DNA of 64,000 nucleotides from Massospora cicadina (Eukaryota; Entomophthoromycota; Entomophthoromycetes; Entomophthorales; Entomophthoraceae). A program made the translations under genes and the position numbers. The DNA lies in contig JAKSZP010012201.1 of NCBI GenBank assembly GCA_022478985.1, forward strand, positions 25,707-89,706, given 5' to 3'. The notes beneath the pieces are model-generated. The model was given only the letters and a program-made list of their open reading frames with translations, was not told the DNA's origin and searched no databases. Within the stretch, counting starts at the first letter, position 1; every line of letters starts with the position of its first letter. Positions 15,371 through 64,000 of the stretch are shown piece after piece.

Positions 15371-16640
15371 CGTAGCAACCCTCTGCCAGCTGGCGGATGC
15401 CTTGTTCCAGAAGATGGTTAATGGAACTTTTGTTGATGAGCCCAAACAAGTGCAGAAAATTCTCTCTGAATTAAGAAAGGATACCCAGACTGAAAAAGGA
15501 GTCTTATTCAAGGTGATTGATGGAAAGAAATATATATTTCCACGTCCCTCAGCTCAAGCAGATCTAATTTTGGCTGCCCATAAGGCTACTGGCCATGGAG
15601 GCTTTAAGAAAACCAAGGAGCAGCTTAAGCAAAATTACTATTGTGATTGGGACCATCTAGTACTAAAAAAATTACTATTGGGAATCAATGCATATTGACA
15701 TCCATGTAACTTTGAGTTGTTGATAAGAGTGCCAAGGGGAAAAACCCTTCCAAAAAGCTATTTCATACCAGCTTGTTCAGCCCAAATTTGCTTGGCACAC
15801 TATATCTATAGATGTGGTTGGGCCCCTCCCGATTAGCAATGTGAAAGCCAAATATATCATTGTGGCAATTGATCACTTAACGAAATGGGTCAAAGCCAGG
15901 GCTATTCAGGACTTAGGAGCCTCAACAACTGCTAAATTTATCTTGGAGCAAGTTATTCATTGGCACAGATGTCCTCAATTTATATTAATGGATAATGACA
16001 CAAATTTCACTGCAGTTATTCTTCAGAAGCTTAATGAATTATTGGGGGGCATGGTGTTCTGTCAACTCCATACCACCCAGAAACAAATGGTGCAGCAGAA
16101 CGAGTTAATGGAACACTTGTCAATATCCCAAAAAAGCTGACTTCTCATAAGCCCTCCGAATGGAGCACACTTCTCAGTTTGGCCATTTTTGCCTACAACA
16201 TCTCTTACCATTTGGCCACGAAGATGTCTCCATTACAACTTCTATATGGGAAGCATCCAGCCTTACCACCATTGTTGTATTCCTTATTACAAGAACCCCA
16301 GGAATTGAGCTATTCTCAGTATGTCAAGAGGCTTGCAGAGACCTTAATTAAACTGCAAGCCCAGGCTTTTGATATTAACTTCAAACTTCGTAAGGCCTGA
16401 CATGGAAAAGATCAAAAAACCTGATACAATCTGCCCAAATTTGCTGTGGGGATGAAGTATTATTTTGTAGTACCCATGGTTCAGGTCAAATTCACAAGTT
16501 AAATCGCATTTGGGTTCGTCCATTCGAAGTTATAGAGAAGACTTTAAACTTTTCTTACACTATTAAGGAGAAAAATTTGGGTCATGTATATAATCGAGCC
16601 CATTCTAAATTCCTAAGGAAGTTTAAAAAGTGGCCCAATT
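15371..16640 (+). pseudogene. Element A integrase, disrupted by a 37-bp insertion
   Basis: The zinc-binding start AHKATGHGGFKKTKEQLK (15578-15632) is followed by QNYYW, where a LINE-tail insertion with duplication splits the frame (15644-15680). The core is at 15805-16140: DVVGPLPISNVKAK, IVAIDHLTKWVKA, ILMDNDTNFTA (second Asp). Later segments (FAYNISYHLATKMSP, 16182-16226) are in shifted frames. The C-terminal end WVRPFEVIEKT ... YNRAHSKFLRKFKKW (16513-16640) looks like a GPY/F-type module; I see no chromodomain. Confidence 0.8.
15644..15667 (+). mobile_element. LINE1-tail micro-insertion 1
   Basis: 24 bp (TGATTGGGACCATCTAGTAC then T and A residues) inserted in the integrase of A. It is flanked by aaaattactattg at 15631-15643 and 15668-15680. 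Removing the insert and one duplicate restores a YYWES-like reading typical of this integrase region. The A-rich end lies next to the 3' duplication, as expected for target-primed reverse transcription. Confidence 0.85.
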
Positions 16641-16854
16641 AAAAGAGAAGAATTTTAATATAAGTATATATAATTAATTTGAAAATAATAGTTATGAGAA
16701 AGGATAATAAAGATGAGAAAAAAATTATATAATAGTGGCAAAAGAAAAAAATTATCATCTATATACATAGTAAAAAAAGAGAATAAGTTTTTATATTTCA
16801 AGTAATAAGAAAACTATAAATTTTAATAGATAAAATGAATTTTATTCCTCACTT

Positions 16855-17960
16855 TCAAGGGGGAGGCGACTTGGAACCTGAACCTTCATCTTTGCATGCC
16901 AATTTGGCCCAATCTAGTTGCTGGGTGACAAGAAAAAGGGCCATAATGGCATAGAGCCAGATGCGCCATGCACTCGTTGAAGATGACTCCCAGCAAACAA
17001 TGGGGAGAGGAGGCACAAACCCATTTATAGTTACCCAATCGAGTCTGCAATCAGGCAGGAAACATGTGCCCAAGAGAAGACAGTCAACTAGGAAATCAGT
17101 TTGATACTGATAAATTTCTGGGGTCAACAATATAACGCGATAAACCTGGGTTTCCACCACTAGATTAGAGGGGGAACATGCAACAAACGACCTGAAGGCA
17201 TCCAGTTGGGGAAAAGGCGCATAAGATGGCCAACTACGGCCATTATGGGGAGGTATTCATCAGCGTTATCCTGATGAAGGGCCTTGAAAGCTGCCCAAAT
17301 GGCTGAGCAAAAATGAACATCTTGAACGTCATGGGTATTCAAACCCAAAGAGGAAGCAAAATCAGGCCAATTCTCAAGCAGCTTAGACCAGGAACCAAGG
17401 TTCTCCTCCATATAGCTATCAACCTGAACGAACTCTTGAGGTCAAACAGAGGTATCTTTGGCCAGCAAAAGATGATCATATTTGGCCCAAGTTTTGCTGA
17501 GCAGTTGGCCTTGACGAGAATAGTTGGCCAACCCCAGCAGTGCACTGTAGTTTTGGGCCATTGGGAAATGGCTGAGTACAAAGAGAAACTCCGCTAAAAG
17601 ATCATCATCTCAATAAACTAGCTGGAGCAAAAAGGTTGGCTCTCTCAGATCAAAAGATCAGCTGAAGTTGTCTGCTGAGACAGTTGTGGAAGCATGAGAC
17701 CTGAGCTCATAACCTATTGATCCTCATTTTGGATCCACAACTTGGACAACTTCCTCCTCAATGATGGTTTTGGGCTGAGTTAACGTCATAACAGTTGGCA
17801 TGGGAAAAAGCTGGCCCAACTCTGCTTCCTGGAGTGAGCCCAAAAATAAATTCATACACATGTTTCTAGGCAGATGAGTAAACTGACACTGCTGTTCAGG
17901 TTCGAGGAAAGTGACAAAATTTATGGTATGCAGAGGATGAGCTGTTTTCAGACATTGAAA
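16855..17960 (-). pseudogene. Antisense reading frame in the 3' region of element A
   Basis: Between integrase and the 3' LTR, the minus strand holds a protein-like frame of about 360 codons, read from near 17960 down to 16855. It has a few in-frame stops (for example at 17724-17726 and near 17158) and at least one shift. The longest open parts are 17411-17160 (83 codons) and 17160-16855 (101 codons). Composition is ordinary protein-like, rich in Leu, Trp, Ser and Pro, with segments such as LENWPDFASSLGL and SAIWAAFKALHQDNADEYLP. I recognise no domain. No comparable frame is seen in B, C or D. It could be an accessory gene of the element or a captured host fragment. Confidence 0.5.
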
Positions 17961-18008
17961 ATATTTTCAGAAAATTTAGGGTTTATATTCCAGTCAAGTG
18001 GGGGGAAA

Positions 18009-18571
18009 TGTTAGATTTGATGGTTGACTCAAAAATAAACCCTTTGAGAAAACCATCAATGCTGATAGATTACTTCCATTGATGGATCCTTAGATCCTCC
18101 CAATTCATCTGCATAATCTGATAAATCATATTCATCTCATAACTGCTCTAATTGCATCTGAGGTGCCCAATTATCTTAGCTGATAATAGCTATGATATTA
18201 TTATATTATGGCCAATTATGGGTACACTTGGGTGCAAAGTGGTCCCACGGCATTAACTAAATTGCACCTCCTAAATTAGTGCATTAAGATTAATGCACTA
18301 AGGCGAAAGTTAGGTTCAATTAATGAAATTGATAATTAAGCACTTAAACATAGATGTCCCAATTATGGGCATACTTAGTGCTATTGAGAGACCTGCCGAT
18401 GTCCTGAATTGGGGTGTGTCATCTTTTATGATCATATATCTTTTATTCCCCATTTATTGTTAGACATTGAGTTATGACATAGCTCTAACTGGGAAGATTT
18501 TGATATTTATTTCAAAATCCAAAGTCATCCCAATTATGGGCATAATTAGTGCTATTGAGAGGCCTGCTGAC
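18009..18571 (+). repeat. Right LTR of element A, 5' part
   Basis: Matches 9171-9729 of the left LTR with scattered differences, and stops inside the second copy of the internal duplication where LINE1 was inserted. The last 15 bases, gagaggcctgctgac (18557-18571), are repeated at 25090-25104. Confidence 0.9.
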
Positions 18572-18785
18572 GGTTCTCTTTCTGATAAGCATCACTTTTC
18601 AAAAATCAATTCAGTCTTGAAATTTAGCCTACTAAAGAGATTTACAAAAACTATTAGCTTATGGTGGGAAACCCCGCAAAAGAACCCGTGGGCTCAGCCA
18701 AACGAGCTAGCACCATCTCAAACGAAGCAACCCTCAGTTACCTACCTCAGGGTCAACCAGAATCACCCACTCTCAAGCAGCGGCT

Positions 18786-21417
18786 GTGAAAGCAGGCACC
18801 ACCCCCCAACCTGGAGCTACTTTGACTAGCACCAGTTCACCTAATCGCACTTCTGCAACCTTCACGCCCAAAAGCTCTGTGTGCGCTGCCTCCCACCAAC
18901 CCGCTGGGCCCCCTCCAAACAAGGAGGCCATCACCCACGCTGTTTTAATGGCGTCTGCTCAGTTGAATGCAACTCAGCCCATCCAGACATTCACCTCCCC
19001 CATTGTGTCAGCTAATTCAGCCCCATCTATTATTGCTGACGCCGTGTTCCTGGCTCCCTCCATGAGGGGCGATACCCAGCTACCTGGCCCCCAAACCCTC
19101 AGATGTAAGGTTGGATTAGCCGCACATTCTGGTTCACTAAGCACCAAATTGGGACAATCTACTCTTCCCAATGGGGATTCAAATGGTTCGAGTTTTAGAA
19201 CTTCACACCAGTTCCAATCTCACCCATCCCATTTAAACCCTGTAATTGGTACTTCTCAAGTCGGCACTTTATCTCCATATGCTGAAATTGACAATACACC
19301 AATCAGCCAGTGAGTTTTGCCCACAAAATCACAGCAAATACTCGGGCTGAATTTACCAAAATATATTGGGATGGTGATGAAACATCGCCCTCCTCCCAAT
19401 TGGCTGGAGTTAATTCCAATATGGATGGGCCTCCCCAATTTAGCGAGGCCCAACAATCACCTGGCCCCCAAACCCTCGGATGTAAGGTTGGATTAGCAGC
19501 ACATTCTGGTTCACTAAGCACCAAATTGGGACAATCTACTCTTCCCAATGGGGATTCAAATGGTTCGGATTTTGGAACTTCACACCAGTTCCAATCTCAC
19601 CCGTCTCATTTAAACCCCATAATCGGCACTTCTCAAGTCGGCACTTTATCTCCATATGCTGAAAATGACCAATTCACCAATCAGCCAGTGAGTTTTTCCC
19701 ACGAAATCGCAGCAAATACTCGGGCTGAATTTACCAAATAGATTGGGATGGTGGTGAAACATCAACCTCCTCCCAATTGGCTGGAGTTGATTCCAATCTG
19801 GATGAGCCCTCCCCAATTTAGCGAGGCCCACAATCCGCCCCTCAATTCAATATGACGCCAGCAACTGCTGTAACATTCCAGCAACAGGGGAACTCCACAA
19901 ACTCGTCCAAACCACCAGCTCACACTCAACCTGTGATTGCAGCCCAAAGCAAACACAAACGTACCAAAGGAGCCACTGGGGCGTGGCAAAAACCTCTGGC
20001 ACCAACGCTACCCAAAGCTGATCCCCGTGAAGTGGCGTTTATTGCTGATGTTAAGAAGAAATGGTCCAAAACTAGAGCGCAAAAAGCTCTACCTCGCTCA
20101 ACCCTCTCCCACACAATTCGCCTTTATTATGGCATAACCCTGTTGAATTCTATATGGAGGATTACTTCTCATACTTTTCAGCGATTGCGGAGACATTCCC
20201 AATTAACACCACCATCCATGAATCAGTGGAGAGCCGCTACATCGATGTGGGCTTTACTGAAGCTGCCCTTGCTGACCATGCTGCCATCCTCCAGGTCATT
20301 ATTCCGAATGGATCTCTTTGCATCTCCCACACATGCTCTCAACTGAAGAAAATTTCATGGGTTACTTTTTTCAACCTACCAACTACTGTTGATCCTGAGT
20401 CTCTTAAACTGGTGCTCCATCGTGGTTTAATGGAGTTTGGGTCTGTTCTTTCAGTGGACTTTAGCGTCCCCTCTTACTATGCTCCCACTCAAAGAGCTCA
20501 CACTGCTAGGGCGTCGTTCATCCCCTCCCCCACTGTATCCCACAACATTGAGGTTATTCCTCGTGTGGCGGTAGTTGGGACATGCCCTGAAATCTTTTTT
20601 GTCGACCCTGATCAGGCGCGCCCCCGGTGTTCATGGTGTAACGCCCTTGGACACCTGTATAGTCGTTGCACAGCTTGAAAACAAGCCCTCTTAGCCACCA
20701 CCCAGGGGCCTAAACCAGGCCAAAACGATCTCACGTGGCCGCAGCAGCAATTCCACAACCCACACAATGGGTTCCTGTTCAAGACCTGTCCCCTGAGGCC
20801 TTACACCTAGCAGTTGAAACAGCTAACCCCACTATTGGTATGGGATACCTTCGCGCTCATGCCCCCTTCCAGTGGGCACCCCCTCCAATCTCCCAGAGTC
20901 AACTCCCTCTCTCACCAAGCGCAAGGCATCTCCCACAGGGCGCCCCTCGTCAGCCACCCCCACTCAGGGCTCCGAGGCACCCCCCACCAACCTCCACCAG
21001 CGATTTATCGCATTAACCCTCAGCTCCCAATATAGCTATTCCACCAGCATGGACTTGCAACCCGCGGCCTGTGGTAGAAGTGCCACCTCAAAGAGTCCTA
21101 CCCCAACCCCACAGTCCATTTCGCGCAGCTCCTTTGCAGTGTTGGAGGAAGTGAATATGGACTCAGACTCATCAAATGGGGACACCGCGGAGGTCGCCAT
21201 TGAGCACCCTCAGGTCCTTCCCCTGCAACGGAGCGGGGGCAGCATCCTAGGCTGGCTTACTGGGTCCTCCGCCCCCACCCTCTCCTTCCCTCAGAACCCT
21301 CGACGCTCCTCACGGATTGCAGCTAATAGTCAAGCTAAAGGACTCAAAACTAGCCGCCTCACAGCAGCAGGTTTAAGCGCTGGCAACCCCCTAAGACATG
21401 GAGGGGAACAGCTATGA
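18786..21417 (+). pseudogene. LINE1 ORF1 (nucleic-acid-binding protein), decayed
   Basis: Ser/Thr/Pro-rich N-terminal part from 18786, an internal tandem duplication at 19084-19833, then a conserved-looking region at 20154-20678 (VTFFNLPTTVDPESLKLVL; possibly RRM-like) that ends in the zinc knuckle CSWCNALGHLYSRC (20628-20669). A Pro-rich stretch and SRSSFAVLEEV follow, and the frame ends in a basic segment RRSSRIAANSQAKGLK. At least three shifts separate open parts 18786-19313, 19310-19741, 19852-20150, 20154-20678 and 20872-21417. Its stop (21415-21417) overlaps the ORF2 start. Confidence 0.75.
19084..19833 (+). repeat. Tandem duplication inside LINE1 ORF1
   Basis: Two direct copies of about 377 bp (19084-19460 and 19461-19833), both starting CTGGCCCCCAAACCCTC and ending near TTTAGCGAGGCCCA. 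They differ by a few substitutions and small indels. The unit length is not a multiple of three, and the two copies are read in different frames, so the duplication or later indels broke ORF1. Confidence 0.85.
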
Positions 21418-24400
21418 GTCCCCATGGTAGCACCCTGGCCCTGCAATCCATCAACGCGAATGGGTTGCGGGACTTTAAGTGGAGAGCCCGCCTCCTCCGC
21501 AACTTCAGGTCAGCACAAATTGACATCGCTGCTTTCCAGGAGCCCCATATCCTTCCCCACGAACAATCTGCATGAAATTAACAGTTTTGAGACAACTCCT
21601 TCTGAACAAACCATGCCGCCCTTATTGTTTTGGATACCCAGGTTAAAAACCCATTCTTTTTCACAATATCTAGGTGGCCGCCTCATACTGGCCAAACTCA
21701 CCACTCCTGACTTCTCTTTCTTCGCTGCAAGCATCTACCTGCCTAATGCAGGTCAGGAGCAAAACCGGCTCTTGAAAGAGGTCGTCCAACTCAATCTCCC
21801 ACGGAATACAGTCCTCTTGGGATATTTCAACACAACCATAAGTCGCGTCTGTGACTCTTACCCCCTGCAGCAAAGGAACGCCCTGGATCAAGTCGCCTCC
21901 AGGATTTCCTTCGCCTGAGTGTCTTTATAGATGCGCTTCCACCCTCCGCGTCTAGCCTAGGTTGCATGACTAGGATCCAGTATGATGGAGGAGCTTTCCA
22001 GTCAGCGTCACGCATAGATATGGCACTGATTGGCCCCCTGCTAATTGGCCGCATCTCCTCTCCCATCTCTCGTGACAACTATCTGAGTGATCATAGGTCA
22101 CTCACCGTTGTCCTCACCACCACGCTTAGACTGTCGCATAGGTTCTGGCCTAGGGTTGCCCCAGCTCTTCTCAACAACCCCTTCAGTAAGGAGAAGCTGT
22201 CTATGACCATCCGGGAGACTCTCATTTCCCCCCACCCCACCTGCTTGACCACAAGGCTATATGGGCGGTGACCAAGGAGGGCATCACCCTGCGTTGCTTA
22301 CAACTGTGCTAAAGCCCAGATGACCGCAGCTCGCGCCAGAGTCAAAAGGGCGGAAGTCAGAATCAGACATCTGGAGCGAAACTGCCAGCCTTCGCACTCT
22401 CCCAGATGGTTGGAAGACTGGGAAGCGGCGCAGGAAGCACTCCGCTTGAAGCTCACACTGCAGGAAGAACGGGCTGCAAACTTTACAACATCTCGTTACT
22501 ATGCTCAATGGGAACGACCCACCCGCTTCTTCTTTCAGAAACAGAAAGCCCTGTCAATAGCGCAGGATATTACTGCACTAAAGATTGGCACTACAATAAC
22601 ATCGATGAATCCCCCCCCCCCCCCCCTTGGGTTGGGACCATCTAGTACTAAAAAAAAAGATTGGCACTACAATTACTTCGGATAAGGAGGAAATCACGCA
22701 GGAACTACACCACTTCTACTCCAGCCTCTTCCATGCCACCCAGGTGGACCTGTTGGACAACCAAGACTTCCTGTGGCGGGCTCCAGAGCCGCCCATTGAC
22801 CCACGGGCTGATGAGGCTCTACTGGCGCCTATTTCCATCCAGGAGGTGATGGAAACCCTTCTGAAATCCCCACGGCTTAAAGCCCCAGGCCCAGACGGAA
22901 TACCCTTCGAGGTGTACCTTCTGGAACCTGCGGTGATAGCCAGAACCCTCCGCGACCTCTTCGCTGCACTCTTGGTGAATGGCGAGGTCCTCCCCGACTC
23001 CAGAGGCTCAATCACGACTCTCATTCACAAGAAGTCAGACCGTGAGAACCTGGCGAACTGGCGCCCCATAGCATTGATCAACACAGACCACAAGCTCTTC
23101 ACGAAGCTTCTGGCCTACTGCATCACCAAATGGGTGTCACCTCGCCTCTCCCCATCCCAGAACGGTTTTATTCCGGGGAGGTCATTATGGGGCAACTTTT
23201 GACCTTCACGTGACTTTGACTGCTAACTCTCGTAAGGTGAATGGCTTTGTGGCTCTCCTGGATATGGAAAAAGCATATGATCGGGTGGCCTGGAAGTATA
23301 TTGATGCTTCCCTGGCCCGCTTCCATCTCCCCCACAGCTAGGCGCTGGATATCAGCGCTCTATGACCAGCTCCACACCAGAGTCCTGGTGCAAATGGGTT
23401 TTACAGTGGCAGTACCAGTTGGACAAGGTCTCCGGCAAGGTGACCCCCTGAGCCCTATCCTTTTTAATATCACCCTTGACCCCCTCTTGGCCTTCTTACA
23501 GGACAAGCTAACAGGGATTCTAGTCCCAGGTAAAGCCCCCACACGCACCATGGCATTTGCAGATGACACCGCCATTGCATTTGGCTGCCCTGGGGATGTT
23601 GCCCTCGCTGCTGTGACCATTGAGAGGTACACCAAGGCGTCCAACGCCATGGTCAACACCTCCAAGACAACAGTTGTACAGGTCGGCTCCCCCACCTTCC
23701 CCCCACCATTTGGTATTGAACCTGTGCGCAGTACCTTCCGTCACCTGGGCGTTCTCACCAACAAACAAGGAGTTGCGCTAAAAGACAATGAGGACTTGCT
23801 CCTCGCAGAAGTTAACTCCAGGATTGCCAGCTGGAACCGGCGGCACATCACCCTCCAGGGTTGAGCTCTGATGGCCAATGTGTTCCTCCTCTCCAAAGTC
23901 TGGTTCCTAGTGCACGTCTGCCCATTCACAGATGCCTTTTATACGCGGCTCAATGTACTCCTCCGCTGTTGGATCTGGGGCTCAAACCATTAACCAATGG
24001 CCCTCTCAACCATTGCCTGACCCTGCAATGAAGGGGGCCTAGGGCTTCTGGACACGCGATCCCACGCTACCACAATCTTCCTGAAGTTCCTATGACCGAT
24101 TGTCTGCTGGGACGCGACCCCCATGCCCCAAAGGGCGCCCGCCCAACGCCAGTCAGTGTCAGCAGCTCTGGGTCTTCCTAGAGCATCTCTGACCTCATTA
24201 GGGGAGTGGCTCACAAACCTCCCAGGCCATCGCCTGAAACCATCCTCATCCCCCTATTGAAACCAGGCTCTCCTTGCCCTGAAAAGAGTAGGCGCGCGGA
24301 TCCACCATGCCTTCCCGTACATAAGGGAAGGTCCTGGCCTCAGCCCCCGTCGCCATGCAATTGTGCACAATGGACAAGTTGTCACAACTCGCCTCAACCC

Positions 24401-25039
24401 CCAAGATCGACCTTCCATCCGCCCAAGACTCCTTGAGCTCCTCCCTCCCTCCATGAGATTCAACCTTAAGAAATTGTGGAAGGACGTCTAACACCCCATC
24501 TTGTCAGCAAAGGTGTCCAACACCTTATGGAGGGTGCTCCACTGTTCATAAAGGACAGGGGACCGGACTGGCCTGACCTTCCAGCACCGAAGCTGCCCCC
24601 ACTGTGCGGAGCCTATTGACTCCCACCTCCATCGTTTTTTCACCTGTCCAGGTGTCGCTGCATTTTGGCCAAAGGACCGGGCGCTCTTCCATGCTCAGCC
24701 CTGGGCTGGACACCCTGTGCAAGACCTCATGTTTGAGCAGACATTGCCTGGTTGCCACCAACCCTCTGTGTCCTCGCCTATGCCACAGCCATCTGGACCA
24801 TCCATAACTCCTTCCTTCGTGCTGCCTTTGACCAGCAGGTGTGGACCCTTCCACACATGATCACCCACTTTCAGGTACACTTTGAGATGGCCCTGAAGGT
24901 CTGCACTATGTCGCCAACCCTCCCTCGCTCAGTTGTCACTGCAGCACGGCTCTGGCGTGCAAACCCCCCCTTTTCTCAATGCCTCCTCCCTCCCCTTCCC
25001 TCGCCTCAGGCTCTTAGGAGCCCAGGCGTAATTCAATAA
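21414..25039 (+). pseudogene. LINE1 ORF2 (endonuclease and reverse transcriptase), decayed
   Basis: Start ATG 21414-21416 overlaps the ORF1 stop (ATGA). Endonuclease blocks: LQSINANGLRDFKWRAR, AAFQEPHI and, after several stops, NYLSDHRSLTVVL (22078-22116; the SDH catalytic box). Reverse transcriptase: PGPDGIPFEVY (22889), NWRPIALINTDHKLF (23058), NGFIPGRSLWGN, QGLRQGDPLSPILFN (23425) and AFADDTAIAF with FADD at 23556-23567. The C-terminal finger C-x2-C-x7-H-x6-C starts at 24594. The last frame (24752-25039) ends at a TAA that lies inside CAATAAAC, so stop and poly(A) signal overlap. Confidence 0.85.
22601..22656 (+). mobile_element. LINE1-tail micro-insertion 2, inside LINE1 ORF2
   Basis: 56 bp made of ATCGATGAAT, a run of 16 C, TTGGGTTGGGACC, ATCTAGTACT and an A-run. 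This is the last part of the LINE1 3' UTR (compare 25042-25089: ATTGATGAAT, C-run, TTAGGTTGGGACC). It is flanked by aagattggcactacaat at 22581-22597 and 22657-22673, giving a duplication of about 20 bp with one mismatch. It interrupts the IGTTITSDKEEI segment just before the reverse-transcriptase domain. Confidence 0.9.
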
Positions 25040-25089
25040 ACATTGATGAATCCCCCCCTTAGGTTGGGACCAACTTTTACTAAAAAAAA

Positions 25090-25861
25090 GAGAGGCCTGC
25101 TGACGTCCCAAATTAGGGTGCATCATCTTTTATGATTAGATATTTTTTATTCCCTATTTATTGTTAGATGTTGAGTTATGATGTAGCTCTGATTGAGAAG
25201 ATTTTGATGTTGAGTTCAAAACCCAAAGTTGTCCCAATTATGAGAGTAAAATTGCCTCCAATTGAGCTGAAACAATTGTTATTTTTAGTCAATTCATGGG
25301 CTGAATTGACTTGGAGATTTTTCATAATTATTATCATAACCAGCAGAGGATTGGCATAATATGAATGAACTCATCTAATAGATGAGTTCAGCCAGGAGAT
25401 GCCTGAGAGGTATATAATACTGGCACCTGGCCAATTAATAAAGCATCAATTAATCATCATTTACTAGTTTATTGATCATTAATAACTACTGTCGCTTAGT
25501 TTATTAATTATTATCCATCTGTTGTCTGTCTGATATATGTATCTGTTGCCGTTACATCTATATTAGATAGTTGTGTGTGTTTATTCTTCCCAAAGAGAAG
25601 TACATAGTTGCCTGCCAGAGAAGTAGTCCCGATTATAGAGGAATAATCTCCTGATTTTGTACAAAGTCATAAGGTCTTGTAATTGTTGGTGCCAGTAAAC
25701 TTAAGAACGGTGAGCATACTGGAGTTACTTGGCTATTATTGAGGATTATCAGAGAATATACTTCCCAATTATGAGCAGGAGTTTCATTTGAAAAGCGAGT
25801 TTATATCCAAAATTTCCTTGTTAATTTATTTTAGCTTGCACCATTGGCTGAAAACTTAACA
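25090..25861 (+). repeat. Right LTR of element A, 3' part
   Basis: After the LINE1 duplication (25090-25104) the LTR resumes at GTCCCAAATTAGGGTG and matches 9731-10488 closely, ending AAAACTTAACA at 25861. The next five bases (ctgat, 25862-25866) repeat the bases before the left LTR. Confidence 0.92.
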
Positions 25862-27426: not shown

Positions 27427-28193
27427 TGTAAGCTTTCATTTTTAAACTTGATGGTACTATGCCCAATAATCCCTACTTTCAATACTTGAAGATAACTAAG
27501 TTTCACAACAAGTATATTATTTTATTAGAAAAGTGTGCCAAGTCACCGCTTATGTACTGTCAGCTAGAGTATCCGCCCTATGGTAAGTATAGTGAAATAG
27601 GCTTATTGAAGTCAAGTACAAGAGTTAGATATAGAAATAACAACATAACTTTATTAATGTAAAAGCAGGGTTTTTTATATGTTTCAATTAATAGTATAAA
27701 CCCCAAAAGAAAAAGGATTAATAATACTAAAGAGGGGTGGCATTTGGAAGTAAGCTCTTGGTAGGGTAATACATTCTGGATGGTATAGTGCCTTTGTATC
27801 ATAATTTTGATAGTAAAAAAAATGGTGAGTTGGATACCCAAGTTGATGAGACTGAATCAAATTATATTAATCATTTGACAGCTTCTTAATTCTTACCCTT
27901 TTTTTGTTTCAAATAATTTGCTGCCTCAAGTGCCACCTTTAGTAGTGGTCACCTGACCTACTGATGACCCATCAAATTGATTAGATAAGAATTCATCTTG
28001 GGGTAACTTAGCCTCGGGTTGATCCTTTGGAATTTTCCTAGAGTCAATTTGAGCTGTACTTCAAGTTGATTTCTATGGGTAACTTAATGAGGTAATCCCT
28101 TTAACCCCCTTCTCAGGTCCAGGTTTCAATTTAGCTGAGGGAGTCAAATGGTCAAAAATTTTCCATAATGTCTGATGTCAGGATATCTGACAC
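27427..28193 (-). repeat. 5' LTR of element G
   Basis: About 767 bp read on the minus strand from TGTCAGATATC (28193) to CTTACA (27427). It aligns along much of its length with the F LTR at 30150-30903 (same TGTCAGATATC start, TACTTGACTTCAATAAGCC and ATACTCTAGCTGA blocks), so G and F are the same or sister families in opposite orientations. Between 26997 and 27404 lies the untranslated leader and the start of gag; nothing else is recognised there. Confidence 0.75.
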
Positions 28194-30139
28194 CCTGGAG
28201 ATAAAAAGTCTGCTTGTAGATTCTTCTGTTGCTATTATGACTAATAAATTGTGTAGCCTTTAAAGGAACAAGCCTTTTAAATATAAAGGAAAAGCTCAAT
28301 ACTGTGCCAAAGAGTCTCAGAGATTTACATATGTTCTTGGGAATGATGGGAAACACAACAATTTATCATAAATTCGCTCAACTCACCAAATCTCTTATAC
28401 TTTGATTGTCAAAAACACCCCCTTTGTGTAGATAGTAGAGCAAAGAACTGCATTCAAGACCATGAAGTATTTGTTGAAAAGTTGGGACCATCTAGTACTA
28501 AAAAAAAAGTATTTTTTGAAAAGAAGGCCCATTTTATGACATCCAGACTATGGGAAGACATTCGTCTTTTTTAATGCTTACAACTTATCTGTAGGAACCA
28601 TTATCTCACAACTTGATGATGAAGTCATTGACCACCTAGTGTCTTTTATGGCAAAATGCTTTAAAATGCCGAAAAAATTGCAGTCATGGAGAAAGAGTGC
28701 CTAGCTGCTTTTTTATGGTGAAATATTTCCATTCCTTCTTGTATGGTAAAATTTTACAGTTGTTACATACCACGCTTCTTAGTAGTGGCTGCAAAACACG
28801 AAAGATCTGACAGAAAACTAGTCTTTTGGGCTCTCAAACTTCAGTACTACAACATGAACATCATCCATTGATCTGGGACAAAGCACATAAATATAGATGG
28901 ACTAACCTGATTCCCCTACCACATTTAGACAATAGTGAAGCTTATGGGTACATGATTTACTCATGAAGCCAAACTTTTGGGAGGAAAAGATGAACAAGTT
29001 CAAAAGATGTTGAGAAAAAACATGCGCAAAATACTAAAGTTCTTGGTGCTTATTATACCAGAAAGTAAGAACCAACTGATTACCTTATTTGTGACCTTAG
29101 GGATGGGTACTAGTTATAATAGAAGCCCACAATACTTTAAAAGTGGAGGAGCCAGGTAAACTCACAAATGGATCAAGGATTGATACTATTTTGTATGAAT
29201 ACTGGACTCTGTAGTGGAAGTCTTAGATTCTTTCATAACTTGTAAGAACAAACACCACAAAAGGGCAAGTACAAATATCATTCAATGGGATTCTCGGCAT
29301 CTGTTCCATACCATCAGTTTAGATGTCATAGGTACACTTCCTGAATCCACAGGAGGAATTTTGGTATATCCTAGTAGGGGTTAATCATTTCACAAATTGG
29401 GTTAGAGCAATTGTCACTCCCACGCAGACTGCCAAGGCTATCACTAACTTTTTATACCAATATATATACTGGGCATGGCTTCCCACAGGTACTGCTATGC
29501 AATAATGGCAAAACTTCACTTAAAGAGTTGTGAAAATCTTAGCTATGAGTATGGGACTCAATATTACTAGCGCCCTACAACCCATCAACTAACAGGAGTG
29601 TAGAAAGATCAAATAGAACATTAGTTTTATTATTACAAAAGATGGCCACTACTTATCCATTACGCTGAGACCTATATCCCAAGTTTGCTAATGGCTTACA
29701 GGATAATTTTCATCCTATCATCAAAACATTACCCTTTGAGGCCTTTCATGGAAGAGAACTGTCATCTGTCTCTATTAGAACGCAAAGTTATCAGTGATAA
29801 CACTGAAGCGCCTGAAAAAGTGCTAAGAGGATTATCCCAGAAGATTATACAACTTCAGTTAAAAGCAATGAAAAAATCTAGCCAAATGGTTATAATAGAA
29901 GGGCAGGCAGAAAATGCATCTCATTAACCTCTTACCACTTTAAGATTTTATATTTATTCTTGTCCTATATAATCAAATGGCGCCTAAAGGAGTGAAACTG
30001 GATTCCATCTGGTATGTACCATATTATATAACCTACAAATGCGGGTGTAAATACTCAATCAAGTCCTTAAAAACTGGAGTAACTATCAATTGTATACATA
30101 GCTGATTCCTATGTCAGTATTTACCTGCCAATATTCTTG
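28194..30139 (+). pseudogene. Element F: reverse transcriptase end, RNase H and integrase
   Basis: Plus-strand gypsy pol lacking its 5' half; it starts abruptly at the outer end of the G LTR. Readable blocks: VPKSLRDLHMFLGMMG (about 28302-28349) and YHKFAQLTKSL, the RNase H start (RRPILCHPDYGKTFVFF near 28524, then SVGTIISQLDDEVIDH), and integrase pieces (ISLDVIGTLPESTGG near 29320, then the VGVNHFTNW block at 29378-29402). The end reads ILEGGDV just before a polypurine tract (30137-30149). Stops, shifts and a 25-bp insertion at 28482 are present. Confidence 0.75.
28482..28506 (+). mobile_element. LINE1-tail micro-insertion 3
   Basis: 25 bp (TTGGGACCATCTAGTACT then A-run) in the reverse transcriptase/RNase H linker of F. 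It is flanked by aagtatttgttgaaaag (28465-28481) and aagtattttttgaaaag (28507-28523), a 17-bp duplication with one mismatch. Without it the surrounding frame reads AFKTMKYLLKRRPILCHPD, as expected for gypsy pol. Confidence 0.85.
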
Positions 30140-45871: not shown

Positions 45872-48497
45872 ACGCACAGGGTACAGCCCTGGATGGGGTC
45901 GCAGATGGGCGGAGGTTTCTGCTAGGCTAAACACCCTGATATGCAAACACCAACACCGAGTTGGGGTTAAATACAGAGAAAACATATAAGATGGAGAAAC
46001 TTGCTCGAGCTATTTTTCTGTCAATTCCAAGCCCAGAAAAATATGACAGCTTGCACACAGGTCCAATAACTGGACAAATCCATAGCAGAAACACCCAAAG
46101 AAGTTGAAACTGAAGTTCACATGTTTTATATGAATTTATATAAATCTGAACCAGTCAAACTAGAAAAAAATCAAAAATCTCTCGCAAGTGCACATATTGA
46201 CACCATGGTTCAAAATAACAATTTAATTAACCTAATATCACATAAGGAATTATAGGAAGTCATATGCAGTGCACCAAGAGGGAAATGCCCTGGAACTGAT
46301 GGGATTCCCTGTAAATTATATATAAAATAATTTACTAACAGTTCTAATATCCTTTTAGCCTCCATGAACAAGTGTATTATGGAAACATGCCTCCTACCTG
46401 GATACAAAGAAGATTACACTTTCACCTTATTCAAAAAAGGAGACATACTAAACCTATCCAACTGGCGCCCAATCTCCCTAACCAACACAGACACAAAACT
46501 AATTACAAAAGTCATGGCCAAACGACTAGGAGAAATTGCAACTGACGCAATATCCCCATCACAATATGGATTTGTTCCAAAAAGATCCATATGGGACAAT
46601 ATCCACAAAGTTGCAAATGTCTGCCAGTCCAAAACCTCTGGAGCGCTTGTCTTCTTAGACCAACAGAAGGCATACAGCAGGGTGAACTGGACCTATCTCA
46701 GGGTCTGCCTTCAAAAATTCAAACTCCTAAATAGATTTATAAACTGGGTTATGTTGTTCACAGAGTCAGCCACCATGACTGTGCGTGGAGCAGGCTTCTT
46801 AACTAACCCAGTCATCCTACAGAGAGGACTCAAACATGGAGACCCTTTAAGCCCTCCACTTTACAATTTTAGTTTGGGTCCTCTAATCCGGAATACAAAT
46901 ACACTTCTCAATGGAATCAATGTCAAGGGCCAACCACCAGTCAAAATGATGGTCTTCGCTGATGACTGTGTGGTGGTAATATCTAACAATCAGGATGTTT
47001 GCAGAATTGAGAAGGTAATACAAGAACATTCAGCCATAAGCAACGCATCACTTAACACTGAGAAAACGGAAATCAAACTCCTGGGGAAATATCAGACCCA
47101 TTGGACGCCATCTACCCTGGGCCAACAAACTAATACAACATCAAGACTCCTCACCAGACATTGGAGGCGAAAATCAGCAATAACCCCACTGAAACTTCCC
47201 TTAACCACCAAGCTGACAGCTGGACCTGTCCGTCACTTGTAGGTATGGTTGTAAAAAGGAGGCTACGCCAACTCCATGATGGAAAATCAACTTCTAGATA
47301 AAATAACAAAAAGCATTTCCTCCTTACATGGACATCAAACAGGTCTAACAGGAAGGGTCATGGTATCCAACTCTATGATTCTATCAATCATATGGTTTAT
47401 GTCCCATGTAATTGCTTTCTCACCAGCCTTCTTTAATACAATTCACGCCTTATTACAAGGATGGCTTTGGTCCAACCACAACCCCCCTGTACGCCTCGAA
47501 ACCCTATTTGGCTCTTGAAGGAATGGAGGTATGGGGCTTACTAATTATGTAAAGCAAGCGACCCATATACTAGGATCATGGATAGCTCAGGTGACTAGCC
47601 CAGATCTTCCAGATATACATTGGGCCAGAACAGCAAGGTATAACATTACATGAGCACTCCAATTAAGAAACTCATATCACCCAAAAACATTAATCAAGTA
47701 TCTGGCGTCCCATCCTACAGCTGCAGGACCACATGGCACTCCTGCACATTTCAAACGAATACTTCTATCCATGAGAAGAGCATAGTGGAAGATCCACATA
47801 TGTGACCAAACCAGTCACCGAGGACGCCCAAGGCTAACTCACAGACAGGAAATTAATGGTCAAATAGTCACAGATAACTTAATATGTAGAAATCCGTGTA
47901 CCATAGCCAGGATTGATTACCTGGACCATATGGATATACCATACAACCTGGAGACCCAAAGAAGAATATGGAGATACACACATTACCTACTACTTCAACT
48001 CAGGATAAGAGCACATGTGTGGAGATGCATGAGGAGAGTATAACGCACATCAGAACGGTCAAATGCTGCCCATTCCTCATGTACAATATGTGGTCAGTAT
48101 GGAAGCCTAGCACACCGTTTAGAACAATTTTCCAACATCAGTGGCTTTATGGAAAGAGGTCATGCGCCTATTCCACCAAGAAAGTGGACAACCATTCATT
48201 CTAGCTAGGAACATGTTCACTCTAAACATGGATTCGCCTATCCACCCATCCCTCCGGGCATTAATAGTAGCAATAGCACTATGGATGATCCATATGCTAG
48301 TATTGGAATCGTTTACAGGAGCAACGCCTACAATCCAAGAAACAATCAGTTGTTTACACTGCCATATATTGGAACATTTCCAAGCATGGTTGTTTGGAAA
48401 CATGACCCCACGTAACAGAAGGACAATCAATACATGGTTCCCCATATGGTTCCTAAAGATTAATTCTTTCCTTCACCCATGCTGCATCCAAGAATAA
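45872..48497 (+). pseudogene. LINE2b ORF2, reverse transcriptase part
   Basis: Continuation after LINE2a. It starts in the pre-RT region; reverse transcriptase frame 46364-47242 contains NWRPISLTNTDTKLITKVM, QYGFVPKRSIWDNIHKV, VFLDQQKAYSRVNWTYL (Asp of AYDRV now Ser), QRGLKHGDPLSPPLYNFSL and FADDCVV with FADD at 46955-46966. Later pieces reach LIVAIALWMIHMLVLE and end at 48497. Many stops. Confidence 0.78.
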
Positions 48498-54072: not shown

Positions 54073-54487
54073 ATGGCTCATTTCATTTGGCGCTCCCTCC
54101 CCACTGGAAACAGCACACGGTTTTCCATGCCTCCCAGCTTTCTCCATTTACCAGTACCCCACCCAAGGATCCTGAACCTGTCATTTTGGAGGAGTCAGTC
54201 AAATCTGAGGTGGACGCAATTTTGGCATCACGCTGGTCCCACCACTTTGTTCATTACCTGGTGGCTTGGATGGATTTTCCTTTGTGATAAACAGCTGGGT
54301 CAGTGCTCATGATTGTGCCAACTGTCACAAGTTGGAGGAAGCATTCCGTATGGCACACCCCAAAGCCCCTCGCCCTCCTCCTAAGGTCGCTGGAACTATG
54401 GCCATCAAATGGTAAGGCCTACAAAGCTATTGCACTGGCTCAGTTCCCAGCGGTGGTGCTTCACCCCCTTCCTAAAGGGAAGGGTAA
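54073..54487 (+). pseudogene. Element C integrase C-terminus with chromodomain
   Basis: Resumes C after element B: FHASQLSPFTSTPPK (54116-54160), then the chromodomain core PVILEESVKSEVDAILASRW and FVHYLVAWMDFP (54175-54287). This matches the P-E-x-I-L-x-x-R ... YLVKWxGYP pattern of chromoviral integrases, which directs insertion by binding chromatin. The frame ends in stops before the polypurine tract AAAGGGAAGGGTAA (54474-54487). Confidence 0.8.
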
Positions 54488-55361: not shown

Positions 55362-55366
55362 TATAC

Positions 55367-56267: not shown

Positions 56268-57039
56268 TGTCATGATGTGGTGGTAGTTAAAAGCCATCAC
56301 CAACAGTTAGGTTGCAGCTCCCCACCTTGCCACAAGGCATCCCCCTGGTTCAAGACTTATCAATAATAGCAAGGCGATGAGGAACAAAATTGAATTGTTC
56401 AAATTGACCTCAGACTCCAAATTAGCACTCCACCTTCCCACCAGTGAAGGTGAGCCTACCCCAACAGGTTTGGGCACGCTGAACCCATTTAATTTGCAAT
56501 GGGGCCACTTTTACCTGCAATGGCCTTAGGCATGCCCTGCCAGCCGTTGCACAGATAGTCACCAGCTCACAAGGTGGAATTGCAACGCAAAAAAACTTGG
56601 TAAAAAATTTGATACCAATTAGCCCAACTGGCCAGATCAGAATCAACCTATGTAGCCAATCAGTGTCGATAGGCCATGGCTCTATCACAAAGATATCCCC
56701 AGGCATCCATGCACCTTTTCCTTATTCACATAGCGAGCTTACAGGGCAGCAGCCCCCCACCGGTACTGCTGTCACACCACTTTCCCCTTTACTTTCCCCA
56801 GCTTTTATTTAAATGAAACCTTAAAAACCTAACCGATTTATTTAAAATTAATAAGTTCATGGGTTGGTCAGCAGCCATGATCGTGATGCTAGGGTTTCCT
56901 GGCTAGTGGTGAAAGTCACCCAATCACCACGGGCCAAACTTTGTGGAGGGTTGTACCATGGTATTCCAACCGTTGCGCTGGGTAATAGCTCATCTTGAGT
57001 GTCATAACAGCCTTGATTATATCAACAAGCTACGTGACA
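56268..57039 (+). repeat. LTR H, relative of the element C LTR
   Basis: About 772 bp with matching ends TGTCA and TGACA. Internal blocks (GGCAGCAGCCCCCCACCGGTAC, TTTATTTAAAT, GGTAATAGCTCATC) align with the C LTR (CAGCAGTCCCCAACAGATACC, TTTTTAAATAAA, GGTAACTCACC). It is a diverged member of the C lineage, and no second LTR is present in the window. Confidence 0.65.
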
Positions 57040-59007: not shown

Positions 59008-62000
59008 TCACGAAGCGGGCCGCTTGAGCTGTAGCGAGAAGACGTGCTGGTACTCGAGCGAAGGGTTGGCCACACAGTGGATCGACCCCGGGGTAACGCA
59101 CAGCGACCTGGAGTTGCCGGTCGGGATCACCTGGGCCAACTTGCACGTCTCGACATGCCAGATCTCTACAAAGTCGGGGTTGAAGCCGAGGATGTAGGGG
59201 TACTCGAAAGCTAAACGGCATCAGCCCAACTCAGCCAGAGGGCCTACCAAAGGAGGCGGGCTCGCCCTCCCACATGACGATAAAGTCCAACCGCGCCCGG
59301 CGGCCGTCCTTGTCGACGTAAAAGGCGAACTCTAGGCCGATAAGTCAGCACGAGCAGGCGCGCGCAAACGTACCGTCGTAACAGAGCAGGAAATCGCGGC
59401 TCGGAACCCGAAAGATGGCGATCGGGCGGACCACCTCCCGCTTGAGGATGAAATTCAGGGACGGGTCGGTGTCGTCGAGAAGCCCCTGGGTGTTGAGGGT
59501 CTCCAGGTCGACGATCTCGAAGCCCTTGGCGCACCCGACGCACAGCTTCGTCTTCAAAAAGTGCAAAGAGGTGTACCCCGAGGGGATGTAGAACTTCTTG
59601 AACAGCCGCATGCCGTCCTTCCCCGCCCGCATCAGAAAGCGGCCAAAGGTGGCCTTCCGCCCCGAGGTCAGCAGCACCGGCTCCAGCGCCTTGACCACCG
59701 ACGTGAGGGGCGTCGACTTCACCACGCACACCAGGCAACGCCCAAGGCAGACCCCGACCTTGAAGAAGGACACGTGGGAGCTGATGCGCCGCCCCTTGCT
59801 GACGGATAGATCGGGGGAGGCCAGGGAGTCCACGGCAAACATATACAACGTCTTATCTAAACGGCTTAGCTGCGAGGGAAACCCAAACCTGACAGCACGA
59901 TCAGCATGTTGTAATCCTCGAGGATCTCGATTTGGGAGATCCGATCGAGATCCATGACCTTCTCATACCGCTGGCGGCCGCCGGTAACCCCCCTAAAGAT
60001 GCCCAGCTCCGTCCCCAGCAAAATCTGCCGCCCCTGGTCTGTTGGATTAGCGGCAAGGCTTGGCGCAACGTTACCGAAGGTGGCGGAGCAGTTGACGCGG
60101 TTGTTGGTTTTAAAGAAGACGTCCGAGATGGTACAAATCTCAAACACGCTGCTCTGGGCGGTGAGCAGTGAGCGCTGCCTCTCGATCTTCTCCTTCCACT
60201 GCTTCCGCTCGGCGAGGGTGTTGGCGTAGAGGGCGATCGTGTGGCCATCCCGCCCAAGGTGCGTGATTTGGAGGAGGAACCCGGACCGGAAGTTGAGCTC
60301 CGCGGCGTTATTCGACCCCATGCTGAGCAGGGAGTTGGCCCGGCGGGAGACAATGCCATTGGACGTCCGGCGGGGCGCCGCAGCCGACGTGGCCATCTCG
60401 TCCGGGACGGTGATCTTGATCATCTCGAGCGGGATGGGCTAAAGGTAAGCGCTAGGCCGGTCGGCTACCTTCTTATGGATCTTGTACATGAAGCCGTCGC
60501 CGTCTTTGAGGGGCTTCTTCTTGGAGAGAAGGAGGATGTGGTCGAAAAGGAACAGGTTGAGTTCGACCTGATCCACCCCCGTCTTCTTCTTAACGGTGCC
60601 GTCCCGGATGAGCTGGCGCTTCTCGCTCATCAGGTTCAGGAGCTTGAGGTGGGGTGAGTCGACCCGCCGAGACTTACCCGAAGCTCGCTGGGCGACCCGA
60701 CAATCAGTTGGCTGAGGCGGGACAGCTTGAGCTTGTTGTCCGCCTTCCCCGTCTCGACGTTGATGCGGTTGAGGTAGCCTTTCAAGATGTCGATGACCTT
60801 CTTCAGGTTGACGCGGTCAGGGTGCTCGTCCGCCGTGAATTTGATGATGGCGTCCAAGAGCAAAGAATACTTGGCCAGGCGGGTGGTGGGCCGACCCATG
60901 AAGCTTTGGATGGGCAGCTTCCGCAGCTCGGGAAGATGCTCCCGCTCCTAAAATCGAGTTGCCGGGTGTAAGCGGGGCGGGTACCTCCAAGAACTTGGCC
61001 AGCAGCGGGTTGCGCAGCACCTCGGCGTCCAGCCGCTGCTTGGCAAACAGCTGGTGGGCGCCGTACGCGACGAAGGGCTCAAAGTTCTGAACGTGCTCGA
61101 GAAACAGGTCGCCGATCTGGTCGACGATGAAGCTCGACTCCTGGCGCCGGACCAGATCGCGCGATAGGATGTAGTTCGTGGAGTAGATCTCCGAGATGTT
61201 AAAGAATACCCCCTCGATGAACTCTTCCCGCCGCTCAATCGGGATGATGTCCTCATACTGGAGGGGCTTGATGAAGTTCTAAACGGGGTTGGTGACCGCC
61301 TTTCCCGACCTACCTCCTGGAGAAGCTCGATGTCCTCCACAAAGTCCTTCTCCGTATAGATGAACTCATAGATGGCCTCCTGGCGCTTCTTTTCCTTGAT
61401 GGGGGTCTTGTCGAGGATCGACTTGGGCACGGTGCTAGCCCAGACGCGCTAGGGAGGGTTAGCGAACCCTAAAACCTTACCAGAGGTTCGGGAAGGGTGG
61501 ACAGGGAGGTCCCCTTGGAGTGGGTCCCAGCCCGCAAACTCGAGTAGTTCTAAAATTCAGCGTTGAAGCGTAAGGCGAATACATGCTTGAGCTTGTGAGG
61601 GCAGGTAGGCGAATAGCACCTCGCATCCTTGGTGCAAGTCGGGGCGTAACAGGGGGCCAAGTTGACGAACACGCCGCTGGGCCCGGACGTCGTTGGCTCA
61701 GCATCCTTGAAGGCGGAAGCGTCGAGGGTGGCCGAGGTTAGATTGAGGAAATCCCTTAAGATGAAGATTTCGTAAGGGGTATCCTTCAGGATGGACTCGA
61801 AGGTAACGTCGTGGAACAGCCGCTGCGCTTCCAAGCTCCTGCCGTACTCCAACGCCAACTTCCGGTCGGTGGTGTCGAGCAGCGCGCAGATGGTGTCCTT
61901 GGGTCTTAGCGTGCCTACAAACGTGTATCCTTACGACAATGTCTTTCCCCGTGAAGGAGTTTTGGTATTCGAGCGAATCCTTGGTATGAGTCTGGCGGGG

Positions 62001-62801
62001 GACGACGATCAAAAACCGGTCGGCAACATCCGAGATGAGGGCACCGGTTAGCGGGGCAAGGTCGGCACGGGCGCCGAGGGCCTCCAAGTTTTGCTCCAAA
62101 AGCTTCTTGTCGGGCTTCAGCGGCGGTTTGGCGGTGTGGGTGGGCGTTACGTCGGAGAAGGCCCGGAACCTGGAACCGATGGGCGTAGGTTTGGGGGGAA
62201 CTGGGGTCGCTGCACGGCTAGAAGGCGCTATGCCATTATTGATGGAACTCCGGGAGCTGGCTGGGTAGGAGTGCTTAAGGGGAGCTTGAGGAAGAGGCCG
62301 AGAGGCCCGCGGGGAAGCCGAACGCTCGTAAATTGAGGGTTCCTGAACGTACGTACCACCTTCAAAGTAGGCGGTATTGATGGGCGGCTCGTTGTTCTGC
62401 GCATGGTCAAAGGGCATATTGGGAGGCCTTGCGGAGGAAGGTGAGGTTCTCGTGAAAGAATTAGTGTGCGGGTTGTTGGTGACGCGGGATAGCGAGAGAT
62501 AGTCTTTTGAGGAGTCATTTCTTGAGCTAACAAACCTGGTGGGCTCGGTGGTGATTGCCGAAACTGGCGAGCTTCTCAACCCCGACGGACTCTTCAAGTT
62601 TAGGGCCGGTGGAGACACGGTGTTCCCCGGCACGTAGTTTCGCGGCAAATTAGAGGAGCGAGAGGCGATGGCCAGAGGGCGCCTAAACGCCCCATTTTGG
62701 CTTGTAGGATCTTCCAGCCGTTTAAGTTCACTTGCAGCAGCGGGGGAGAGAAATGGGGAGGGGGAGCGAGAGGTTAGCTGTGGATTGGCAGTGCGATACA
62801 T
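59008..62801 (-). CDS. ROM2: Rho1 guanine-nucleotide exchange factor, Rom2/Rgf type (11 exons)
   Basis: Activates the GTPase Rho1 at the plasma membrane, upstream of glucan synthase, Pkc1 and the cell-integrity pathway (family knowledge). Inferred exons, in transcription order: 62801-61935, 61897-61583, 61549-61481, 61448-61314, 61278-60985, 60947-60678, 60642-60469, 60438-59889, 59856-59374, 59331-59248, 59210-59008. They join in frame to 1147 residues. Domains: disordered Ser/Pro-rich 1-240; DEP about 247-335 (FTGKDIV); a Cys-rich segment near 375-392 (CYSPTCP); DH about 438-645 (KRQEAIYEFIYTEKDFVEDI, RPTTRLAKYSLLL); PH about 665-796 (ERKQWKEKI); CNH about 805-1140 (VFEICTISDVF, FLLCYDEFAFYVDKDG, IWHVET). 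All ten introns are 30-42 nt, GT...AG. The start is the first ATG of the open frame. No stop or shift in the exons. It is the only intact gene here. It could be a paralogue (Rom1/Rgf) rather than Rom2. Confidence 0.9.
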
Positions 62802-63446
62802 TTTAACAAGGTGGCATAATCGCCGGTAAGAAAGATAAGCCCGAGCTGGCAAAAACGATTGAAGGCTGGTTTATGGCAACCACAGAAGATATCTAAACTT
62901 GAGAGAAGACCCCGGCGCAGTAAAAGGAAGAAGGTTGCGTTTTCAGGTGGCAACCCCATTATTCTCTTCTTACCCTTGCCTCGGGTTTGCCAGATCCGTC
63001 AGTGCCTCTCAGCTGGAGCTGATGGTCCAGTTCTCATATCCTGTCCTGTCTGAACTGGATATCCAGTTTTACAAGTCTAAACTGGATATCCAGCTCTGTT
63101 CGAATCGTCTAAGTTTTAGACGGAGGAAACTTTTAAATCTAGCCTTACCTAAAATGGAACGGCTAAGCATACTTAAGTTCCCCTTTCCATGTTTAGATTT
63201 TGTTCCAGAGATGCCTTCATTTCACCCGTCGTGGCTCCGACTCGTTTGTTCCGGGTAAGGTATTGTTTAGGCTTTGCCACCCGTTGGGCGGCTTTGATCT
63301 CATCGATGAAGGCTGGGGATTACCCGAATGGAATTGTGACCCATTAACTAACCAATTAAAATACGTTTAAAATTTATTTCCAATTTAGAAAACCTCTTAA
63401 AGAGCTAAAATTGCAACCGTTGGAAATTGATCCTCTCTGTCATTTT
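62802..63446 (-). promoter_or_regulatory. Upstream region of the RhoGEF with two palindromes
   Basis: No gene is seen divergently. At 63053-63068 lies the perfect 16-bp palindrome AACTGGATATCCAGTT; at 63082-63093 its 12-bp core CTGGATATCCAG recurs, 27 bp centre to centre, about 250-290 bp upstream of the start codon. The spacing and repetition suggest a binding site for a dimeric factor, but this is only inference. No clear TATA box is seen. Confidence 0.4.
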
Positions 63447-63661
63447 GAAGCTATGTAGGTTTAATTTCATGTCTAGTGTATGAAGCTATGTAGGTTTAAT
63501 TTCATGTCTAGTGTATGAAGCTATGTAGGTTTAATTTCATGTCTAGTGTATGAAGCTATGTAGGTTTAATTTCATCTCTGTAGTGTATGAAGCTATGTAG
63601 GTTTAATTTCATGTCTGTAGTGTATGAAGCTATGTAGGTTTAATTTCATGTCTGTAGTGTA
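63447..63661 (+). repeat. Minisatellite, six units of 35-37 bp
   Basis: Six consecutive copies beginning GAAGCTATGTAGGTTTAATT, starting at 63447, 63482, 63517, 63552, 63589 and 63626. The first three units are 35 bp and identical; the others carry TCTGTAG in place of TCTAG (+2 bp), and the fourth also has CATCTC for CATGTC. The array is thus ordered into two variants. No coding potential. Confidence 0.95.
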
Positions 63662-64000
63662 CACCAGGTGCCAATTTTCTCTTTAGGTTTACTATGACCA
63701 TTACCGCTGGCGTCTAGCACCCGGCATTCATGGAACTTCATCCATATTGAACTTAAAAAGTATATTTTTTTTTAGTACTAGATGGTCCCAACCCAAGGGG
63801 GACTTAAAAAGTATATTCAGTACCTTTTATAACCTACATCGATCATCTTTCCAGCGTAAACCTGCAAACAAAAATTTTTATTAATCTGATCGACGCTTAA
63901 ACTCCAAACAAAAATAAAATTTGGAGATAAGGTCTACAACCAAGCTTCCCTATAAATATTGATTTTTGAACATTTGAAGGGGTGAGATAAATCCATGACG
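63662..64000 (+). other. Non-coding end of the window with LINE-tail insertion
   Basis: AT-rich with no open frame. The only feature is the micro-insertion at 63766-63801. Confidence 0.5.
63766..63801 (-). mobile_element. LINE1-tail micro-insertion 4, reverse orientation
   Basis: 36 bp; on the minus strand it reads a C-run, TTGGGTTGGGACC, ATCTAGTACT and an A-run. It is flanked by the perfect 15-bp duplication acttaaaaagtatat at 63751-63765 and 63802-63816. This copy lies outside any other recognised transposon, about 1 kb upstream of the RhoGEF start. Confidence 0.9.

Follow-up and report, generated by a model that had tools for sequence, protein, structure and literature searches.

What leaves behind insertions that hold only the last few tens of bases of a long interspersed nuclear element (LINE)? 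The question is raised by 64,000 nucleotides of the fungus Massospora cicadina (contig JAKSZP010012201.1 of assembly GCA_022478985.1, positions 25,707 to 89,706 of the forward strand; hereafter the window, numbered from its first letter), in which an earlier note described four tail-only LINE insertions, each with its own target-site duplication (TSD), and took them for target-primed reverse transcription that had stopped almost at once. All four insertions are borne out. Such inserts are indeed very short, with sizes down to 8 nt and once 4 nt plus an A-run, and they fall into two classes, a short class with ends scattered over 11-24 nt and a boundary class that begins at a fixed point, AATAA|ACATC.

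Four LINE tails in the window and their source element

The 16-mer GGGACCATCTAGTACT has four exact matches in the window, at 15649, 22634 and 28484 on the plus strand and at 63774 on the minus strand, and a fifth match with three mismatches at 25066 (plus) that is the 3' end of a full-length LINE. These five matches at up to three mismatches compare with a mean of 0.52 and a maximum of 4 in dinucleotide shuffles, none of 100 of which reaches five. Direct duplications of 13, 18, 17 and 16 bp bracket the four exact copies, all of them perfect apart from one mismatch in the 17-bp pair.

The first insert (15644..15667, plus strand, short class, 24 nt including the A-run) lies between identical copies of the 13-bp TSD AAAATTACTATTG at 15631..15643 and 15668..15680. 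It interrupts a frame at 15102-15698 with the Pfam domains RT_RNaseH and Integrase_H2C2, the latter just under the curated cut-off; we label this RNase H/integrase frame Gypsy-type. The second (22598..22655, plus strand, boundary class, 58 nt including the A-run) starts with AACATCGATG between identical copies of the 18-bp TSD AAAGATTGGCACTACAAT at 22580..22597 and 22656..22673, and its host is the full-length LINE of the window itself, in the part with the reverse transcriptase (RT). This insert carries a run of 16 C at 22612-22627, perhaps from slippage; in most other listed copies the run has 5 to 8 C. The third (28482..28506, plus strand, short class, 25 nt including the A-run) sits within a dispersed repeat, with a 17-bp TSD at 28465..28481 and, with one mismatch, at 28507..28523. 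The fourth (63767..63801, minus strand, 35 nt including the A-run) starts with CCCCCTTGGG and is flanked by a 16-bp TSD at 63751..63766 and 63802..63817; a tandem array of 35-37-bp units at 63446-63688 adjoins it. The positions first given for the inserts at 15644 and 28482 stand, with their duplications, while 22601-22656 with about 20 bp becomes 22598-22655 with 18 bp, and a start at 63766 with 15 bp becomes 63767 with 16 bp.

The motif was also correctly recognized as the 3' end of a LINE family, of which a full-length copy lies at 18573..25089 (plus strand) between identical copies of its own 16-bp TSD, GAGAGGCCTGCTGACG, at 18557..18572 and 25090..25105. Its reading frames are broken and contain RVT_1 at 22609-23202 (under the curated Pfam cut-off) and 23241-23864; Pfam found no endonuclease domain in the broken frames scanned. 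The 3' end of this copy differs from GGGACCATCTAGTACT at three positions, and the exact tail is present on other long copies. Within its 5' half, 19082-19835 is taken up by a 377-bp unit that occurs twice (94% over 211 nt), and six full-length copies in the genome measure 6.06-6.12 or 6.40-6.43 kb, as if they held one or two such units.

Genome-wide abundance, duplications and empty sites

In the assembly from which the window comes (1.47 Gb, 16,968 contigs), GGGACCATCTAGTACT occurs 19,595 times and the 17-mer CATCTAGTACTAAAAAA 32,754 times, as against one occurrence for each reversed motif; exact-match counts of this kind miss decayed copies, and the assembly may hold both haplotypes. The sites read were those on the first listed contigs and are a non-random sample. 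We scored duplications with +1 for a match and -2 for a mismatch, called a score of at least 11 clear, and used as a control flanks taken from another site. By this measure 72 of the first 94 distinct 16-mer sites are clear, against none of 94 mispaired flanks, and in an enlarged set, which includes long copies whose duplications could not be seen, the figures are 121 of 148 and none of 148.

The earlier note had made its reading depend on whether most genomic copies carry duplications, and most of those sampled do. The 17-mer, used to escape the bias of a longer query, yielded 100 distinct sites in the loci of its first 100 listed places, and these comprise 85 inserts of 11-43 nt (A-run excluded) with a clear duplication, 10 long LINE copies, whose duplications could not be seen within the stretch read, and five unclear sites that score below 11, four of which show a degenerate duplication by eye. 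The duplications differ in sequence from site to site and are mostly 13-19 bp long. They start with A in 64 of 69 sites and have A at the second position in 62 of 69, which points to an A-rich nick site; the class label in this 69-site set is wrong for a handful of sites, L045, L061 and L088 among them, but the length counts below rely on it solely for excluding the 10 long copies. The A-run is short, 6-9 bases in 112 of 121 sites with the target A included. The constancy of the 3' end follows from selection, the sites having been found by that end, and the 5' ends range from 8 nt to full length.

Empty sites were sought with the repeat around 28482, the one window site tested in this way. The search returned 51 matches, and in seven of the best 11 related loci the insert is absent and a single copy of the duplication remains, as seen from the overlap of two matched pieces and, for five of them, from the alignment too. 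At this site, then, the motif is no ordinary conserved sequence. The other four loci (L163, L165, L167 and L173) have tail sequence at that position, and in three of them its 5' end or its variant is not the one seen in the window; because the query contained the tail, tail-bearing copies are over-represented among the listed matches. The target of these four, in a dispersed repeat, is the same as that of the insert at 28482, perhaps a preferred site that was hit repeatedly.

The sites thus combine the features of LINE insertion by target-primed reverse transcription: duplications, an A-run at the 3' end, an A-rich nick, an empty site and a source element with an RT. To the alternative that the motif is a conserved or chance sequence and no insertion at all we give next to no credence, and we reject it on the shuffles, the single occurrence of each reversed motif, the failure of all 148 mispaired flanks and, at 28482, the empty copies.

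Two length classes

The 85 short inserts of the 17-mer sample are unevenly distributed in length. There are 24 of 11-13 nt, 19 of 14-16 nt, 13 of 17-19 nt, six of 20-22 nt, two of 23-25 nt and two of 26-28 nt, then none of 29-34 nt and one of 35-37 nt, followed by seven of 38-40 nt, 11 of 41-43 nt and none of 44-46 nt. From 11 nt the numbers therefore fall until about 24 nt, nearly vanish between 29 and 37 nt and peak at 38-43 nt, beyond which none of the 85 is found before the long copies begin.

The declining series at 11-24 nt, taken alone, would fit 5' truncation of the usual kind, in which an RT of low processivity ends at no particular sites, and severe truncation of LINEs is known from Anolis (PMC5389967). 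The rest of the distribution argues against this explanation, which we consider unlikely. Of the 19 ends within 29-43 nt, 18 sit in the 6-nt stretch 38-43 (p = 8e-7, with bins chosen after seeing the data), and neither the empty interval at 44-46 nt nor the lack of anything longer among the short inserts would be expected. The long copies speak in the same direction. Among five that were read with 1.5 kb of flank, four remain LINE sequence throughout the stretch read (1.46-1.53 kb; one of them has an internal deletion), and at least six of 19 listed long copies (contigs C1-C13) measure 6.06-6.43 kb from 5' end to tail, which suggests that an RT past the boundary often goes far; yet the remaining one of the five ends at about 512 nt. 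The LINE 5' end, at up to two mismatches, is found at no fewer than 706 places in the genome, a lower bound, since the query was taken from the 5' end of the window copy and most of the matches listed depart from it by one or two changes, against 3,302 for a 21-mer of the 3' region that crosses the boundary.

Still shorter inserts are found with the 14-mer TAGTACTAAAAAAA, which has 33,258 genome copies against 82 for a control. Of its first 100 matches, the 12 without CATC were all read. Four of these are inserts of 8-10 nt, from three independent events (L174 and L175 share one); one is an insert of 13 nt, four are longer with a changed base there (L177, L178, L179 and L185) and three belong to a related family described below. 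The shortest insert, 4 nt (TACT plus A7), is supported by an exact 16-bp duplication, although the duplication test is less specific for very short tails, decoy words scoring at least 10 in 7 of 102 and 1 of 67 cases, mostly of low complexity.

Some sites are composite. At L062 an insert of the boundary class has one of 13 nt next to it in the same target sequence, and at L082, L088, L035 and L074 the candidate duplication is separated from the LINE tail by 76-179 nt of other sequence, possibly from template switches or nested insertions.

A fixed boundary shared by two families

The peak at 38-43 nt starts at AATAA|ACATCGATG. Among tails that end in the 16-mer, the genome counts are 7,124 for GATGAAT, 6,055 for CATCGATGAAT, 5,990 for ACATC, 3,279 for AACATC and 1,941 for AATAAACATC. 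The A before CATC is thus present in 98.9% of CATC tails. Up to 4,049 copies belong to the boundary class genome-wide, this being the number with ACATC and no exact AATAA before it, possibly including some long copies in which AATAA has changed; no such change was seen in 11 long copies read with exact ACATCGATGAAT. The base preceding ACATC in these 4,049 is A in 1,338 (33%), no more than flanks give, the last base of the duplication being A in 43 of 118. When 25 boundary sites are read singly, eight start exactly at ACAT and nine are compatible with this start, with bases shared with the duplication; four others start at AACAT or AAACAT, from LINE sequence or an added A, and in four ACAT is preceded by one or two bases foreign to the LINE. 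Together, the retained A and the single-site readings indicate an exact right edge for the boundary and a left edge placed to within about two bases.

A fixed 5' end is also what would be expected of a tiny independent, non-autonomous element of about 42 nt, similar to a short interspersed nuclear element (SINE), with a source gene of its own and mobilized by the LINE. We find this very unlikely. The TCAGG tail type makes up 6 of 25 boundary inserts and 4 of 17 long copies, a similar variant mix that suggests that boundary inserts probably derive from many LINE sources. No distinct head is seen: where a SINE would have its own head with an RNA polymerase III promoter, the 85 short inserts consist of LINE tail plus a few additional bases at the most, the largest number seen being 8. 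The 11-24 nt class would also be left unexplained.

The boundary recurs in a related LINE family (family 2), whose tail CACCACTAGTACT has 1,148 genome copies and in which AATAAA is followed, after five bases, by a GC-rich hairpin region of similar kind. All of its first 23 listed sites were read; 20 run on into LINE sequence and three are tail-only inserts with duplications (scores 12, 15 and 11), so the tail-only share is much lower than in the main family. The start of all three directly follows AATAAA and reads GATGCGTGG, either exactly or with one or two bases changed or added. This indicates that the position of the boundary is common to both families even though the sequence there differs.

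A predicted hairpin in the tail and a proposed mechanism

The tail is predicted to form the hairpin GAUG-AA-UCCC...GGGA-C-CAUC, with paired positions 8-11, 13-16 and 19-20 in the 3' arm and 25-30 and 33-36 in the 5' arm. Insert ends fall in the 3' arm and loop, hardly ever in the 5' arm, and cluster again 5 nt beyond that arm, at AAUAAA. Covariation in the hairpin, as seen in 12 aligned typed tails and in the GTGG/CCAC pairing of family 2, is only suggestive; the family 2 stem strand GTGG, which pairs with CCAC, is present in 11 of 23 copies (two GTGG words elsewhere excluded). A stall of the RT ahead of the hairpin was considered and rejected, as there are few inserts of 7-10 nt.

We favour, with somewhat more confidence than doubt, target-primed reverse transcription by one LINE family that mostly aborts within the hairpin or stops at AAUAAA before it becomes processive. 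The RT would start at the 3' end of the RNA (...UAGUACU plus the A-run) on an A-rich target nick. In about nine-tenths of sampled events it would stop within 43 nt, with second-strand processing still yielding a normal duplication; the normal duplications even on 11-nt inserts suggest that the second-strand steps may not need a long first strand. The first stop zone, 11-24 nt, would correspond to the 3' arm and loop of the predicted hairpin, which would have to be opened before the RT turns processive. A second hold would produce the fixed stop AAUAA|ACAUC, 5 nt beyond the hairpin, and candidates for what holds the RNA at AAUAAA are the RNA-binding surface of the RT itself or a polyadenylation factor. 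Copies that pass the boundary would then run for hundreds to thousands of bases, a good part of them to full length. The classes and the boundary are observed; the hairpin and something held at AAUAAA are their presumed cause.

Several observations weigh against this mechanism. The full GTGG stem strand is lacking in 12 of 23 family 2 copies, and the 11-24 nt class is not seen in the 23 family 2 sites, for which the 19-mer query would miss anything under 13 nt. Folded alone, the hairpin is no stabler than shuffles (z -0.07), and the z of -2.0 obtained with upstream sequence includes a second hairpin; in some long copies the hairpin is poorly paired. The right edge of the boundary is sharper than a stalled polymerase would be expected to leave, and a template whose 5' end is fixed would fit it as well. 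Finally, the four boundary inserts with non-LINE junction bases, and the four more with an added or templated A or AA, are what run-off at a template end might leave.

The last two points also fit templates cut before they are copied, in which trimming or cleavage of the LINE RNA would leave 3' fragments, some starting at ACAUC under the protection of the hairpin and others, cut in its loop or arm, shorter; the RT would copy these to their ends, and the boundary would be the end of the RNA and no RT stop. The recurrence of the position in family 2, in spite of its different sequence, is likewise consistent with this. The short class speaks against it: it spreads over 11-24 nt and lies partly in predicted paired positions, which a nuclease that cuts loops would not favour. 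We regard pre-cut templates as a serious possibility, though not a probable one.

More doubtful still is an RT with a built-in template boundary, which would be bound at the AAUAAA-hairpin region and copy a fixed length of about 42 nt unless the anchor releases. The model would be telomerase, which is held to its own RNA next to the template and halts at a set position, but the likeness is an analogy only.

Neighbouring features of the window

At 63053-63093 a 14-bp duplication, AACTGGATATCCAG, flanks 13 nt, TTTTACAAGTCTA, possibly a tiny insertion from another element. Host-type gene frames occupy 59244-62870 on the minus strand, and one of them, 59866-60438, contains PH_5 and CNH domains and is presumably Rho-GEF-like; these domains, like the size of the genome, agree with a fungal origin. 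Two further RVT_1 frames lie at 43535-45088 and 46331-47242.

Comparison with known elements and significance

In Anolis many CR1 insertions are shorter than 50 bp and were inferred to be missed by BLAST, and L1 copies tend to end early or to finish (PMC5389967). Truncations below 50 bp are therefore common to Anolis CR1 and the Massospora LINE, whereas neither a fixed 5' boundary nor an 11-nt class, nor any connection with a tail hairpin or AAUAAA, is described in the part of that account consulted. Human LINE-1 has a constant 3' end, an A-tail, duplications of 4-20 bp and truncated 5' ends (PMC4859970); the Massospora LINE differs in that about 90% of sampled copies are 43 nt or shorter, in its fixed boundary class and in its short A-run. 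The R2 RT binds its own 3' RNA and primes on a target nick, with up to five non-templated bases and microhomology at template ends, is described as highly processive with one insertion site in 28S, and has RNA-binding motifs likened to those of telomerase (PMC4117753). Unlike R2, most events of the Massospora LINE abort, and its targets are dispersed A-rich sites. The listings of a literature search, in a library with few subscription papers, gave one clear precedent for LINE insertions under 50 bp, that of Anolis CR1, and no LINE with a fixed 5' boundary. Very short LINE truncation is thus already known, and the fixed boundary and the tail-only share of about 90% appear, from this search, to be new.

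Between 85 and 90% of the sampled insertions are very short and likely fall below the reach of repeat annotation. Scaled to the 32,754 tails, this would amount to about 28,000-29,000 insertions of about 15-60 bp plus duplications, with both haplotypes and copies multiplied inside repeats counted. The position of the boundary beside AAUAAA raises the question of what holds the RNA during initiation. If the RT did have a built-in template boundary, many insertions would be regular products of the enzyme and not accidents, under a rule common to two related families. The inserts provide a countable record of where a LINE RT stops, from which initiation, escape and processivity may be studied in sequence.

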